Assembly (NCBI GenBank): GCA_902566775.1
Contig: CACFKF010000002.1
Location: 34,993 to 98,992, forward strand
Length of the DNA: 64,000 nucleotides
Direction: 5' to 3'
Origin: an uncultured Pelagibacteraceae bacterium
Lineage (GTDB): Bacteria; Pseudomonadota; Alphaproteobacteria; Pelagibacterales; Pelagibacteraceae
In this document: positions 27,790-35,591 of the stretch, piece by piece
Layout of the letters: every line of letters begins with the position of its first letter
How positions within the stretch are numbered: the stretch's first letter is position 1
Notes under the pieces: generated by a model
What the model saw: the letters and a program-made list of their open reading frames with translations, nothing else
Database searches by the model: none
Told to the model about the DNA's origin: nothing
Made by a program: the position numbers and the translations under genes

Positions 27790-28110
27790 ATGGCGACAGT
27801 TAGTGTTACAGATGAAAATTTTGATTCGGAAGTAATTAAAGCATCCAAACCAGTTATAGTTGACTTTTGGGCCGAATGGTGTGGTCCATGTAAAATGATT
27901 GGCCCTGTATTAGAGGAGATCTCAGGCGAGATGTCGGATCAGGTAATAATTGCTAAACACAATATTGATAATGAACCTAATACTCCAGTTAAATATGGAA
28001 TTAGAGGAATACCAACAATGTTACTATTTAAAGAAGGAGAATTAAAAGCTACAAAAGTTGGAGCAACAACTAAATCTAATATTGTTTCCTGGATAAAAGA
28101 AAATATTTAA
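27790..28110 (+). CDS. trxA: Thioredoxin
   Basis: Cytoplasmic thiol-disulfide reductant of 106 residues. The active site is WAEWCGPCKMIGP, and IRGIPTMLLFKEGE contains the cis-proline. The full fold is present with no signal peptide. It converges on folC with a 4-base overlap. Confidence 0.98.
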   Translation: MATVSVTDENFDSEVIKASKPVIVDFWAEWCGPCKMIGPVLEEISGEMSDQVIIAKHNIDNEPNTPVKYGIRGIPTMLLFKEGELKATKVGATTKSNIVSWIKENI

Positions 28111-29372: not shown

Positions 29373-30258
29373 CTGATATTCTATTATTTATATCAGAATT
29401 TTTCTTTAACAATATTGATAAAAGGGAACTTATTTTTTCTTGTAAATCTTTTCTTTCAACAATTAAATCAACAAAACCGCATTCTTGAACATATTCTGCA
29501 CGTTGAAAGTTTTCTGGCAAATCTTCTTTTACTGTAGCTTGAATTACTCTGCGTCCAGCAAATGCAATTAAAGAATTTGGTTCTGCAAGAGTTATGTCAC
29601 CCAACATAGCAAAAGATGCAGTAATACCCCCAGCTGTTGGATCTGTAAAACAAACTATATAGGGAATGTTATTTTTTTTTAATTCATTAACAGCTAAAGT
29701 TGTTCTGGTCATTTGTGTAAGCGCAATTGGTGACTCCATCATTCTTTGACCCCCTCCGCAAGGGAAAAACACAAATGGATTATTATTGTCAATTGCATGT
29801 TGAATTCCTGTAATAACTGCTTCACCTTCTGCCGAGGCAACACTACCACCAATAAAATCAAAATTGATTGCACCAGCTGTAATATTTATTCCATTTATGT
29901 TTCCTCTTGATATCATTACAGCACAATCTTGGTTAGTTTTTTTTCTAGCTTCTTTTAATCTATCGGTATATTTTTTTGAGTCTTCAAATCCCAAAGGATC
30001 GTCTTTAGGTATTGGTGTCTTTATTACTTCGTAATTATTTTTTCCAAAAAAAATATCAAACCTTTGTCTACAACTAATTCTATGATGTTTGCCGCATGAA
30101 TTACAAACCCATAGGTTTTCCTCAAGTTCTTTTTTTAAAATTGGCCCTTTGCAACAAGATGTCCAATCACTACTCTCGATTTCTTCTTTAGTTGGTCTTT
30201 TTTTTAATACCTTTTTTATTTTATCACCAATATGAAGAACACGTTTTATCCAATTCAT
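29326..30258 (-). CDS. accD: Acetyl-CoA carboxylase carboxyltransferase beta subunit
   Basis: Beta half of the carboxyltransferase that makes malonyl-CoA. The crotonase-like core has GGSVASAEGEAVITGIQHA, FFPCGGGQRMMES and FTDPTAGGITASFAMLGD. The N-terminal zinc region is present but altered: Cys pairs are C35-C36 and C52/C55 rather than CxxC...CxxC. Length 310. It lies between trpA and folC, an order conserved in alphaproteobacteria. accA is at 52619 in this window. Confidence 0.96.
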   Translation of the reverse strand: MNWIKRVLHIGDKIKKVLKKRPTKEEIESSDWTSCCKGPILKKELEENLWVCNSCGKHHRISCRQRFDIFFGKNNYEVIKTPIPKDDPLGFEDSKKYTDRLKEARKKTNQDCAVMISRGNINGINITAGAINFDFIGGSVASAEGEAVITGIQHAIDNNNPFVFFPCGGGQRMMESPIALTQMTRTTLAVNELKKNNIPYIVCFTDPTAGGITASFAMLGDITLAEPNSLIAFAGRRVIQATVKEDLPENFQRAEYVQECGFVDLIVERKDLQEKISSLLSILLKKNSDINNRISDETSEANFETAAKAS

Positions 30259-31058
30259 AATATTTTATTTTTTAACCTTGTTACCATCTTAACAACATTT
30301 GTGACAGGATTTTGTCTTTTTTTTAAAGATTCTGAAATTTTCTTACATAATGCGCTTCCTACTACTAAGCCATCGGCTTTTTTTAGCGATGAAATAGTTT
30401 TTTCAGTAATTCCAAAGCCAATCACAACATTTTTTGATCTATTTATTTTTTTAATAGATAAATATTTTTCCAAAATTTTTTTTGAAGAAACTTTAAGTTT
30501 GCCCCCAGTTGTTGATAGCATGCTTATATAATAAATCATATCATGTGAATCTTTTATAATTTTCTTCATTCTTTCTTTAGAAGTTGTAGGTGATAAGAGT
30601 TGAACAAAGCTTATTGATTTTTTCTTACATTTTTGAGCAAATTTTTTGTTTTCGGGCCAAGGCAAATCAACAACAATTAATCCATCTACTTTAGATAATT
30701 TGCAGTTTTTTAAAAAATTATTTTCACCGTTCTGATAAATTAAATTATAGTAACCCATTAATATTAAAGGTTTTTTAGGATTATTTTTTTTAAATCTTTT
30801 AGCAATTTGAAAAGTATCCTTTAAAGTGGTTCCATTTTTCAAAGATCTATAAGTGCTATTTTGAATCTGGCCTCCATCTGCAATAGGACAGTTGTGTAAA
30901 AATGATAGTTCTAGAATATCAACATATTTTGCAATTGAATTTAATATTTTTAATGAATTTTTTTTGGTATTATCGCCAGCAACAGTAAAAGATATGAGAG
31001 CTGTTCTTTTTTCTCTTTTAGTTTTTTTAAATGCTAAACTAATTGGAGATATTGTCAT
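30255..31058 (-). CDS. trpA: Tryptophan synthase alpha subunit, divergent
   Basis: TIM-barrel lyase that cleaves indole-3-glycerol phosphate, 267 residues. The catalytic Glu is kept in DILELS and the Asp in PIADGGQIQ; ILMGYYNLIY, GLIVVDLPWPE and the phosphate site VIGFGI...GLVVGSAL are present. However the normally near-invariant ELGxPFSDPxADGP reads ELSFLHNCPIADGG, and the loop SxxGVTG reads SMLSTTGG. Its neighbours trpF and trpB show parallel departures. It overlaps accD by 4 bases. Confidence 0.9.
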   Translation of the reverse strand: MTISPISLAFKKTKREKRTALISFTVAGDNTKKNSLKILNSIAKYVDILELSFLHNCPIADGGQIQNSTYRSLKNGTTLKDTFQIAKRFKKNNPKKPLILMGYYNLIYQNGENNFLKNCKLSKVDGLIVVDLPWPENKKFAQKCKKKSISFVQLLSPTTSKERMKKIIKDSHDMIYYISMLSTTGGKLKVSSKKILEKYLSIKKINRSKNVVIGFGITEKTISSLKKADGLVVGSALCKKISESLKKRQNPVTNVVKMVTRLKNKIL

Positions 31059-31061
31059 TAT

Positions 31062-32288
31062 TTAAATTCCTAATCTCTGCTTTAAGATATCTTTGTCTTT
31101 ATGTGCATCACCACATGAGTTTACAATTATAACTGTATCCTTGCTCAATTTTGGAGCTAATTTTATTGCCTCTGCAAATGCATGGCTAGGTTCCAAGCTT
31201 GGATTTAAATTTTCAAATTTGGTTACTAACATATATGCACTTAATGCTTCTTCATCAGTGGCTGCTGTGTACCTTGCTCTTTTTGCATCCTTTAAAAAAC
31301 AATGTAGAGGAGAAACTCCTGGATAATCTAATCCAGCGCTAATAGATTCCGTTTCTTCTATTTGACCTTCTGGGGACATAATTACATATTGAGAGGCACC
31401 ATGGAGAATTCCTATTTTTGAACCATAAGTTAGTGGAGCTGCATGTTTTTTACTTTGCTTTGGTCCCCCTGCTTCAACACCAACGAACTCAATTTGTTTT
31501 TTATTATAATGCATAAATTCATTCCAAAAGCCAAAGCTTGAAGAACCTCCTCCGACACAATTTAACAATTTTATTTTTTTTGGGATACTTCCAAACTCTT
31601 TTTTTATTTGTATAAAAAGTTCTCTAGAAATTTGTGATGTACTCCAGCCACAAATTTTGACGAAAATATTAGGTCCTACAGTTGAGCCTACACACATATG
31701 AGTAGTATCACAATTTGATACCCAGTATCTCATGCATTCACTAACAGCATCAACAAGTGTTTGGCTGCCCGTATAAACTGGAACTATTTCAGCGCCATTT
31801 TTTTTCATTGCATCACAGTTGGGTTTTTGTCTTTTAATGTCTTTTGCACCCATAAATATTTTACATTTTAAGCCAAATTTTTTTGCAGCCATACTAAGCA
31901 TTTTTCCTGCATACCCTGCTCCTGTATCACCTACAATATATTTTTTTCCAGCTCTTTTAGCTATAAGGCAATGAACTGTAGCATTGTAAATTTTATGAGC
32001 ACCTCCATTGGCTTCAGAAACAATTTTTGTCCATATTTGAGCACCGCCCAGACTTTTAGTTAAGTTTTCCAATTTTACGAAAGAAGTTGGCGATCCTACC
32101 CAATTTTTAAAATAATAATCTCTTTCTTTAATAAATTTTTTGTCTCTTCTTAATTTTTCAAACAAAACAGTAAGATCTTCGACAGGTTTTTTCAGTGTTT
32201 CAGGAATAAAATTGCCTCCGAATTTGCCTCCCCAAAAACCATTTTTATCATGTTGGTCAATTAATGGTATGTCCTTTTTAATTTTCAT
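31062..32288 (-). CDS. trpB: Tryptophan synthase beta subunit, divergent active site
   Basis: PLP enzyme joining indole and serine, 408 residues. The PLP lysine (K99 in GGAHKIYNA) and SISAGLDYPGV are kept. Several hallmark motifs differ: ETGAGQHG is DTGAGYAG, so the catalytic glutamate is aspartate D121; GPHP is GPNI; the phosphate loop GGGSNA is GGGSSS; HSISAGLDYPGVGPEH is ESISAGLDYPGVSPLH; and the C-terminal SGRGDKD is SCGDAHKDKD. Position in trpF-trpB-trpA favours tryptophan synthase, but altered kinetics or substrate are possible. It overlaps trpF by 11 bases. Confidence 0.88.
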   Translation of the reverse strand: MKIKKDIPLIDQHDKNGFWGGKFGGNFIPETLKKPVEDLTVLFEKLRRDKKFIKERDYYFKNWVGSPTSFVKLENLTKSLGGAQIWTKIVSEANGGAHKIYNATVHCLIAKRAGKKYIVGDTGAGYAGKMLSMAAKKFGLKCKIFMGAKDIKRQKPNCDAMKKNGAEIVPVYTGSQTLVDAVSECMRYWVSNCDTTHMCVGSTVGPNIFVKICGWSTSQISRELFIQIKKEFGSIPKKIKLLNCVGGGSSSFGFWNEFMHYNKKQIEFVGVEAGGPKQSKKHAAPLTYGSKIGILHGASQYVIMSPEGQIEETESISAGLDYPGVSPLHCFLKDAKRARYTAATDEEALSAYMLVTKFENLNPSLEPSHAFAEAIKLAPKLSKDTVIIVNSCGDAHKDKDILKQRLGI

Positions 32289-32895
32289 TGTTTAGTTTTT
32301 TTAACTTATTCAAAAAGTTTTTAATTTTTGATATATCTTTTACTTTATTTGTTTCTAAAGCACCAGAAACATCAACTATATCAGCTAAATTAAAAATTCT
32401 TTCAAGTTTATCTATGTTAATATTTCCAGCAATCATTTTAGTGACTTTGCTTTGAATTGAATTCATCCAATCAAAATTCCAATCTAAACTTAGTTCAAGC
32501 CCCGAACTATCCCAAAGAATAATATCGGCAATCTTTTCGAATTGTTTATAGTTTAAGATATCTTTTTTATTTTTAATTTGAATAGTTACAATTACTTTTT
32601 TATTAAATTTTAATTTGATATCAGAAATTGATTTTTCATTATAATTTCCATAGATTTGAAAATAATCTATATTTAGTTTTGAAAATTTTTCTAACTCCTC
32701 ATTTTTTGGATTAACTAATACGCCAACATATTTTGTATATTTTTTTTCTATGTTTGTTAATTCCTTTGCTTTTTCAAATTGAATAAATCTATGACTTTTT
32801 GGATAATTTAAAATGAAACCACAATAATCTGCCTCATGTTGTACACAAGTTTTTACTTGTTCTGCACTGGAAAGACCACACACTTTCACTTTCAT
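32278..32895 (-). CDS. trpF: Phosphoribosylanthranilate isomerase, divergent
   Basis: TIM-barrel isomerase of tryptophan synthesis, 205 residues. The catalytic Cys is kept in VKVCGLSS and the catalytic Asp in ILWDSSG. Family motifs QLHG, GGTG and LAGGL are replaced (QIYG; no GGTG after the Asp; MIAGNI), and DVSSGVE reads DVSGALE. The call rests on the N-terminus, overall layout and its place ahead of trpB-trpA. It lies 4 bases behind pyrF. Confidence 0.86.
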   Translation of the reverse strand: MKVKVCGLSSAEQVKTCVQHEADYCGFILNYPKSHRFIQFEKAKELTNIEKKYTKYVGVLVNPKNEELEKFSKLNIDYFQIYGNYNEKSISDIKLKFNKKVIVTIQIKNKKDILNYKQFEKIADIILWDSSGLELSLDWNFDWMNSIQSKVTKMIAGNINIDKLERIFNLADIVDVSGALETNKVKDISKIKNFLNKLKKLNNEN

Positions 32896-33860: not shown

Positions 33861-35591
33861 TTACTTTTTTTCTTTTTTTTGTTTTTTTTCCAATTTATCT
33901 GATAAAGACGAAAATGGAAGATTTTTTCCTGAAAGTGGTGAACTAAATTTAGAAACTGCCTCTTTATTTTTTAACTCTTCTAGCAATTTTATACTAAGCG
34001 AGACCTTTCTTTTTTTTAAGTCTAATTCTGCAATTGCAGCATCAATACGTTCAGATCCAACAAATCTAGAAGGTCTAGCATCAGCAGAATTAATTGCAAT
34101 TTGTGATTTTTTTATTATAAAATCCAATTCACATCCTTCTGGCTTGACCACAAGACCTTTATTATCAGAACTAACAACTTTCACGGTGATCGCATCATTT
34201 ACTTTTTTGTACTTGAACCAGTCGAAAGGATCTGCTTTAGTTTGACGCAAGCCAACTCTAACTTTTTGTTGATCTTTTTTAATTTCTAAGACTTTTACTT
34301 TAAGCTTATCACCTTTTTGGTATTTTTTTAATTCAGCCTCTGGATCTTTTCCATATGTAAGATCATTACAATGAAGAAATGCATCAATTCCCAAATCATC
34401 TATTGTTAAATATATAGCATATTCGTTAAAGGTTTTTACAACACCTTCAACTTCAGTTCCAATTGGGTATTTTTTTTCCATCAATTCATATGGATTTTTT
34501 TGAGTTAGACGGTGAGAGATTGCAATTCTTCTTTTTTCTTTGTCAATTTCAGTAATTACACATTCAATTTCATCACCTACTTTGAACATTTTTTTTGCAG
34601 AAGGATTTTTCTTTGTCCAACTTAATTCGCTTGAATGTAACAAGGTAGAGAGTCCAGGCTCTAATTCGCAAAATGCTCCAAAATCCATTATTTTAACAAC
34701 CTTTACTTTGTATGGTTTATTTAATTCATAGTTTGAAATGTGTCCAAAAGGATCAGGAGAAAGTTGTTTTATGCTACAGCCAACTTGTAATTTTTCTTTA
34801 TCAACACTAATGACTAATAAATCATGTTTTTCACCAATATTAAAAATTTCATCTGGGTGATTTATTCTTGAGTAACTTATTTCTTGTAAATGGACCAACA
34901 CATCCAATTCAGAATTGACATCAAAAAAACAGCCAAAACTTGAGTAACCTTTAACTACCGCATTTTTAATTACATCTCCAACCTTATACTTTTCAACAAT
35001 TTTTGCTTTATCTTCTTTTTTATTTGAAGAAATTATTTGTCGTCTTGATACGCAAGCATTTCCCCTAATTTTGTCCAATTTGATTAGCGCAAATTTCTGA
35101 GGTTCATTCATTAAATGAGAAATATCTTTTAGTGGTTTATCCGAAATTTGAGATCCAGGACAAAACATTAATGATCCTGTATCAAGATGTTCAACTATAA
35201 CACCACCTTTACACTTTGAAGTAATTTTACCAATTATAGGCTCATTTTTTTCATAAGCTTTTTCTAATTCAAACCATCCTTTAATTTTTTGTGCTTTTAT
35301 TGCCGAAACTACAACTTCACCATTTCTATCCTCGATTTTTTCAAGCAAAACTGAAATTTTATCTCCAACTTTAATATTTTCATAAATTTTTATAGTCTTT
35401 ACTTCATTAATATCTAATACTGGCTCTGATTTTAATCCTTCGATAAATAAGAATATAAATTTTTCAGTAATTTTTGAGATCTTTCCTTCTACAATTTTTC
35501 CTTCTTCAATTTTATTTCTTGATAATTGGTTATTTAACAGTTCAACAAATTCTTTGGAAGCGGTAGTATTTATTTCTTTATAAATTTCCAT
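33861..35591 (-). CDS. rpsA: 30S ribosomal protein S1
   Basis: Six-repeat S1 protein of 576 residues that binds mRNA on the small subunit. Repeats are visible as GKISKITEKFIFLFIEG, GKITSKCKGGVIVEHL, NAVVKGYSSFGCFFDV, VKVVKIMDFGAFCEL, GVVKTFNEYAIYLTI and VKVVSSDNKGLVVKP. The tail is lysine-rich. It overlaps cmk by 14 bases; cmk-rpsA-ihfB is a conserved order. In a genome with few Shine-Dalgarno sites, S1-mediated initiation may matter more; that is inference. Confidence 0.97.
   Translation of the reverse strand: MEIYKEINTTASKEFVELLNNQLSRNKIEEGKIVEGKISKITEKFIFLFIEGLKSEPVLDINEVKTIKIYENIKVGDKISVLLEKIEDRNGEVVVSAIKAQKIKGWFELEKAYEKNEPIIGKITSKCKGGVIVEHLDTGSLMFCPGSQISDKPLKDISHLMNEPQKFALIKLDKIRGNACVSRRQIISSNKKEDKAKIVEKYKVGDVIKNAVVKGYSSFGCFFDVNSELDVLVHLQEISYSRINHPDEIFNIGEKHDLLVISVDKEKLQVGCSIKQLSPDPFGHISNYELNKPYKVKVVKIMDFGAFCELEPGLSTLLHSSELSWTKKNPSAKKMFKVGDEIECVITEIDKEKRRIAISHRLTQKNPYELMEKKYPIGTEVEGVVKTFNEYAIYLTIDDLGIDAFLHCNDLTYGKDPEAELKKYQKGDKLKVKVLEIKKDQQKVRVGLRQTKADPFDWFKYKKVNDAITVKVVSSDNKGLVVKPEGCELDFIIKKSQIAINSADARPSRFVGSERIDAAIAELDLKKRKVSLSIKLLEELKNKEAVSKFSSPLSGKNLPFSSLSDKLEKKQKKEKK

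Follow-up and report, generated by a model that had tools for sequence, protein, structure and literature searches.

Does a tryptophan synthase beta subunit (TrpB) in which several active-site hallmarks have been replaced still make tryptophan, or has it taken up another chemistry? Tryptophan synthase is a textbook case of allostery and channelling, and the gene that raises the question comes from SAR11, which is among the most abundant groups of ocean bacteria. We analysed a 64,000-nucleotide stretch of DNA from an uncultured Pelagibacteraceae bacterium (the window). An earlier note had described one open reading frame as a TrpB with altered motifs, placed at 31062-32288. These coordinates were exact (minus strand, 408 aa), and DTGAGYAG, GPNI, GGGSSS, GVSPLH and SCGDAHKDKD were all present in the translation, as were the conserved PLP lysine (in GAHK) and SAGLDYP; a motif of the canonical ETGAGQHG type was not seen in it. 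The locus contains the following features, with residues in E. coli/Salmonella numbering:

31062..32288, minus strand: trpB, divergent tryptophan synthase beta subunit of type A (see below), a 408-aa open reading frame.
30255..31058, minus strand: trpA, the alpha subunit, diverged together with trpB; it retains the catalytic residues E49 and D60 but has Cys in place of D56.
30888..30890, minus strand: TrpA D56 to Cys, from the TrpA alignment.
32278..32895, minus strand: trpF, with an 11-base overlap with the trpB start.
31905..31928, minus strand: DTGAGYAG, the substrate carboxylate loop (canonical ETGAGQHG), with D109, Y114 and A115.
31992..31994, minus strand: PLP lysine K87, conserved in the alignment.
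31809..31811, minus strand: R148 to Ala, from the alignment; R148 is the closed-state partner of Q114 (PMC9512447).
31752..31754, minus strand: K167 to Val, from the alignment; K167 is the partner of TrpA D56 (PMC6608616).
31665..31676, minus strand: GPNI (canonical GPHP), from translation and alignment.
31536..31553, minus strand: GGGSSS, the PLP phosphate loop (canonical GGGSNA; N236S), from translation and alignment.
31302..31319, minus strand: GVSPLH (canonical GVGPEH); D305, just before it, is kept.
31095..31115, minus strand: CGDAHKD (alphaproteobacterial canonical CGRGDKD); C377 is ordinary, and R379, G380 and D381 are replaced.

The genomes compared with the window are grouped below into genera (g1, g2 and so on), and their assignment to SAR11 rests on kinship groups, on gene order and on the correspondence between genome G026 and strain HTCC1062. 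In g2, g3 and part of g4 and g10, pyrF lies directly before trpB and trpF was not detected (L076, L099, L100, L153-L157, L160, L163, L164). The window's thioredoxin gene (27790-28110) shares 83% identity with one g2 genome and about 88% with some g1 genomes, and only about 34% with other members of its own genus; thioredoxin genes are thus divergent alleles at this locus. For ribosomal protein S1 (window 33861-35591 and homologues), identity is mostly 61-86% within g1 and mostly 33-46% between g1 and other SAR11 genera, and these between-genus values are low for such a gene.

The window TrpB belongs to the TrpB1 family. Its best family match was TIGR00263, with a full-length alignment (residues 21-402) scoring 380.3 bits, which is below the curated equivalog cut-off of 392.45 bits; other type-A members of the order score 392-406 bits. 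Against TIGR01415 (TrpB2) it reached 85-91.3 bits, below the cut-off of 518.85, and it is therefore not a TrpB2. Comparison with TrpB1, TrpB2 and other SAR11 TrpBs, as the earlier note had advised, revealed that the changes are SAR11-wide. An AlphaFold2 model (mean pLDDT 87.8, pTM 0.89) resembled the best solved TrpBs at a TM-score of about 0.9 and 42-45% identity, the closest being P. furiosus TrpB (6am8; TM 0.92, 42% identity). The model was used for the fold alone, and active-site geometry was not taken from it because its alignment consisted of few, distant sequences.

The replacements are E109D, Q114Y, H115A, H195N, P196I, N236S, G310S, E312L, R379D, G380A and a variable residue 381; H82N, T83G, R148A and K167V go beyond those first listed. 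Kept are H86, K87, the phosphate-loop glycines and serine, R141, D305, E350 and K382-D383. Residue counts were taken over 45 type-A TrpBs from 13 genera, with 24 canonical TrpBs as reference. Of 112 positions that are invariant in the reference (at most one exception), 33 are replaced in type A, far beyond chance. K87 and the phosphate-loop GGGS were nevertheless present in 45/45, H86, S235 and E350 in every member, and position 109 was Asp in all 45, so that the carboxylate is kept while the canonical Glu is absent.

Two of the proposed hallmark losses hold in part. At the C terminus the changes at R379, G380 and 381 stand, but Cys377 is not a lost hallmark, being found in 11 of the 24 canonical rows; CGRGDKD is common among canonical alphaproteobacterial TrpBs. 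Likewise, E109D is present but is no oddity in itself, since Asp109 occurs in 20 otherwise canonical-looking TrpBs of the GTDB collection, including an Ilumatobacter genome group. Ilumatobacter-lineage loci with a natural E109D in a canonical-looking TrpB beside trpA were L134, L135, L140, L141, L147, L150 and L152. In work by Brzovic in 1992, cited in PMC9512447, the E109D exchange reportedly altered the Salmonella enzyme, a point against the best explanation given below; our literature search on E109D found nothing usable.

The earlier note had surmised that the pattern might be a trait of the whole clade, and this proved correct. In a class sample of 142 genomes, two of them SAR11, the other alphaproteobacterial full-length TrpBs mostly scored about 550-658 bits on the TrpB model; two second copies fell lower, at 518 and 245 bits. 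The latter (G454:C7:23639-24775) is a strongly divergent second TrpB in an alphaproteobacterium outside SAR11 that also has a canonical one. In an order sample of 147 genomes nearly all TrpBs scored 320-406 bits, and the divergent TrpB is therefore an order-wide SAR11 (Pelagibacterales) trait; canonical scores (633-649 bits) were confined to G299, G344 and G347, and three g16 genomes had intermediate TrpBs of about 465 bits. Type A was absent at E <= 1e-120 from 298 other genomes drawn across the phylum, and viral contigs contained no type-A relative. TrpBs in phage records did not exceed 43% identity and appear to be contaminating host sequence, so transfer of type A by phage is unsupported. 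The divergent SAR11 cluster as such is already known: Kagan et al. 2008 (PMC2395257) placed the SAR11 sequences in a separate, third cluster of trpB_1, noted an identical gene order and a single trpB in HTCC1062, and concluded that this gene must be functional; their text gives no active-site residues, types B-D, cassette exchange or frameshift. In five SAR11 genomes that are 91-96% complete (G156, G174, G276, G274 and G044) trpC was present and trpA and trpB were not detectable; the simplest reading is an assembly gap, the alternative auxotrophy.

At least four divergent TrpBA types, together with the canonical type of G299, G344 and G347, share this one locus, an arrangement that is apparently new. 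Type A, the commonest, has the TrpB motif D-T-G-A-G-Y/M. Type B reads ESGAGQH(Y/F/W)S and has Gln for D305 in the aligned members, type C reads ETGAGAHLIA with R141L and D305N, and type D reads ETGASMNAR and is 26-34% identical to the other types. On the same count of 112 positions, types B, C and D replace 27, 25 and 47. Genera g1 and g4 contained both type B and type D; type D was also found in g2 and g3.

The alpha subunit has changed with its partner. TrpA keeps E49, D60, Y175, T183, G211, G213, G234 and S235, with exceptions for D60 in type B and G303. In these (L071, L072, L073, L084) the catalytic Asp60 is Glu, beside a changed TrpB. Activation runs in part through the contact of TrpA D56 with TrpB K167 (PMC6608616); canonical enzymes have Asp56 in 19/19 TrpAs and Lys167 in 22/24 TrpBs. 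In type A the canonical pair is absent, with Thr, Cys or Ala at TrpA 56 and K167V in TrpB, each in 45/45. Types B and C retain Lys167 together with Glu56, and type D has Thr56 with Leu167. Types A, C and D have also changed both members of the Q114-R148 pair, whose bond forms in the closed state (PMC9512447). Such joint loss fits a working pair with rewired communication, not a decaying gene. Of the alterations that the earlier note had suggested, altered allostery thus gains support, as far as the loss of contacts on both sides would indicate changed signalling between alpha and beta subunits.

In some g4 genomes the type-A TrpB lies in two pieces, which meet at profile position 105. We found this shifted trpB in 14 of 169 g4 genomes, drafts of 59-86% completeness from 14 species (L217-L230, for example G163:C7:5675-5698), and in no genome outside g4 among 397 genomes drawn from the order. 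The site lies at D109-T110 and reads GTGGGGGAT ACC [A/C]GG C, with one extra base, A in 13 genes and C in one, after GAT ACC (codons 109-110). On the DTGAGYAG loop this is the point between T110 and G111; the window's own trpB has no frameshift. Translation in frame 0 would give V-G-D-T-R-R and meet a stop codon 6-18 codons past the site, and the +1 frame opens 13-14 codons before it and continues through G-A-G-Y-A-G to the normal end. The N-half always ends in IVGDT and the C-half always starts with GAGYAG.

The codons GTG GGG GAT ACC [A/C] GGC were identical in 14/14 shifted genes, and this five-codon run of single codons is the longest in shifted trpB (permutation p = 0.006). Among 35 unshifted type-A sequences the same codons vary freely and the shifted combination is never present. 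A G-run stands two bases before the P-site codon, and the A-site holds a less-used Arg codon (AGG 13% and CGG 1.4% of Arg codons in the shifted genomes). The same genomes contain the prfB site AGGGGGTATCTTTGA. From these features, a programmed +1 frameshift by the ribosome would be the simplest explanation of the split genes, and one at the catalytic residue is apparently new; a literature search on trpB frameshifting found nothing usable. It is unlikely that the halves represent two separate polypeptides, a pseudogene or an assembly error. The split recurs in 14 different species with either A or C inserted, the synonymous context at the junction is invariant, and both halves are under purifying selection (dS mostly >0.8, dN near or <0.1). 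In addition, the C-half has no suitable start, its first ATG lying downstream of the loop, and the shift context is gone in G004, an unshifted genome nested among shifted members that has ordinary codons at the site.

The window gene is real and heavily remodelled, and it very probably encodes a working tryptophan synthase beta subunit. Our best explanation, to which we assign a probability of roughly 0.88, is an ordinary TrpB with a remodelled substrate loop and allostery. PLP would sit on K87 and serine would be converted to aminoacrylate, with indole supplied by TrpA; the acidic residue at 109, here Asp109, would hold indole N1. The substrate loop and alpha-beta communication would have been rebuilt jointly with TrpA, and a subset of g4 type-A trpB genes would be expressed through the programmed +1 frameshift at codons 110-111. 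Strong purifying selection is evident from TrpB dN/dS values of 0.01-0.07 for type-A, type-B and type-C pairs. Genome G026, one contig of 1,308,759 bp that we take to be HTCC1062, encodes a single TrpB, which is of type A, and lacks TrpB2. HTCC1062 grows in a defined medium of pyruvate, glycine, methionine or DMSP, and vitamins, in which tryptophan is not listed (PMC8437039, PMC5069961), and trpC, one other pathway gene checked, was present. Taken together, purifying selection, the sole TrpB of G026, tryptophan-free growth and trpC make tryptophan synthesis the best reading. This role, for which the earlier note had argued from the position between trpF and trpA, is supported also by the gene order and by Kagan et al. 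2008 (PMC2395257). We found no kinetics or complementation for SAR11 TrpBs.

A changed reaction, in which TrpB would use another nucleophile or amino-acid substrate while some other enzyme, such as TrpB2, supplied the tryptophan, is improbable. Several substrate-loop and indole-pocket residues are indeed replaced, and the search for a second trpB that the earlier note had recommended yielded a TrpB2 in the window's own genome (G000:C4, 625 bits; L002 1408-2769 minus, G000:C4:21120-22367), so this particular cell need not depend on type A. However, the TrpB-model search found TrpB2 in only 4/147 order genomes, and this rarity led us to reject it as the real tryptophan enzyme. Moreover, HTCC1062, the strain that G026 matches in size, grows without tryptophan on type-A TrpB alone, and the adjoining TrpA retains its catalytic residues. 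Altered chemistry or substrate, the remaining suggestion of the earlier note, is not supported, because D109 occurs in otherwise canonical TrpBs, in ordinary trpBA operons; an acid stands at 109 in 45/45 and the gene is single-copy in a prototroph. The G000 TrpB2 carries the motifs ETGAGQWG and GGGSNF, and TrpB2, rare in the order, was also seen in G218, G222, G290, G305 and G006.

Still less probable is a catalytically dead TrpB that activates TrpA to release indole, like the eudicot TSB-like pseudoenzyme, in which the equivalent Glu is replaced (PMC12727527). The same residue is changed in SAR11, but every type-A TrpB has an acid at 109 together with K87, H86, S235 and E350, the gene is the single copy of a prototroph, and the TrpA-activating D56-K167 contact is precisely the one that was lost.

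Returning to the remodelled but very probably working enzyme, loci outside the window provide the evidence that trpBA moves between genera as a two-gene cassette, which is apparently new (as they do for the g4 frameshift). G241 (g4) and G160 (g1), both type D, share 90% identity in trpB and 88% in trpA, against 37% in rpsA, 31% in trpF, 36% in accD and 34% in folC; pyrF is at 64%. Conversely, G078 and G026, both g1, share only 38% in trpB and 30% in trpA versus 76% in accD, 66% in folC and 77% in rpsA. What is exchanged is the trpB-trpA pair, and the boundaries lie near the gene ends. Genus g1 needs 9 changes on the TrpB tree versus 2 on the rpsA tree, which recovers the genera, and within type A alone the AU test rejected g1 as one clade (p = 1.8e-4 for trpB, 4.2e-4 for trpA). 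Slow evolution alone is scarcely credible as the source of the cross-genus similarity: TrpB is conserved in general, and type-A identities between genera lie mostly at 60-92%, but different types occur within one genus and the same type across genera, most flanking genes are 31-37% identical where trpBA is 90/88%, and the tree tests conflict with it. One trpB clade of the window, G083 and g3 was also rejected, one g3 member (G042) grouping elsewhere, and we therefore do not claim a single donor. Since accD, folC, trx and pyrF each have more than one allele class within g1, the whole region recombines, which agrees with a report of promiscuous recombination in SAR11 (PMC12374537). Over the roughly 60 kb around the locus compared in a handful of genomes, trpBA is among the most divergent parts.

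We are fairly confident that SAR11 TrpBA is multi-allelic, with at least four deeply divergent, remodelled types whose gene pairs are exchanged between genera at a single locus, much as diversifying selection might produce, and with the TrpB of the shifted g4 genomes made only through programmed +1 frameshifting. Candidate causes of the diversification are an inhibitor, an antagonist within the cell, and drift accompanying promiscuous recombination. The literature that we searched, with few subscription journals, did not contain the active-site inventory, the types, the cassette exchange with co-changed TrpA or the frameshift. Nearly all SAR11 use a remodelled TrpB instead of the textbook version, and these differently rewired TrpBs with co-changed TrpA offer a natural series in which rules of allostery can be tested. 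That an essential two-gene enzyme is exchanged in place between genera raises the question of what selective force keeps a housekeeping enzyme varied. If true, a +1 frameshift at a sense codon of trpB would carry recoding of the prfB kind into amino-acid biosynthesis.

Among known systems, the window TrpB is most readily set beside TrpB1 (TIGR00263; S. typhimurium TrpBA), with which it shares the fold, PLP lysine, H86, S235, E350, R141-D305, the operon with trpA and the role. It differs in the 33/112 replaced positions of type A and in its score (380 versus the 392-bit cut-off). It falls in the SAR11/Pelagibacter trpB_1 cluster (PMC2395257), with the same gene order and a single copy in HTCC1062. 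The natural D109 TrpBs of Ilumatobacter, Saccharopolyspora and Saccharibacteria share Asp109, with trpA adjoining in the Ilumatobacter and Saccharopolyspora loci; in contrast to the window TrpB, their other inspected hallmark motifs are canonical. TrpB2 (TIGR01415) is likewise a PLP beta-replacement family, but the window TrpB matches it at 85-91 bits versus 625 for the G000 TrpB2. The eudicot TSB-like pseudoenzyme (PMC12727527) is also a TrpB relative changed at residue 109, but to Ala, not Asp, and it is a paralogue beside an intact TSB. Finally, the g4 trpB site resembles the programmed +1 frameshift of prfB in its G-rich Shine-Dalgarno-like element just upstream, its +1 direction and its being mandatory for the product, whereas its A-site codon is a sense Arg codon (AGG/CGG) and its spacing is one base shorter.
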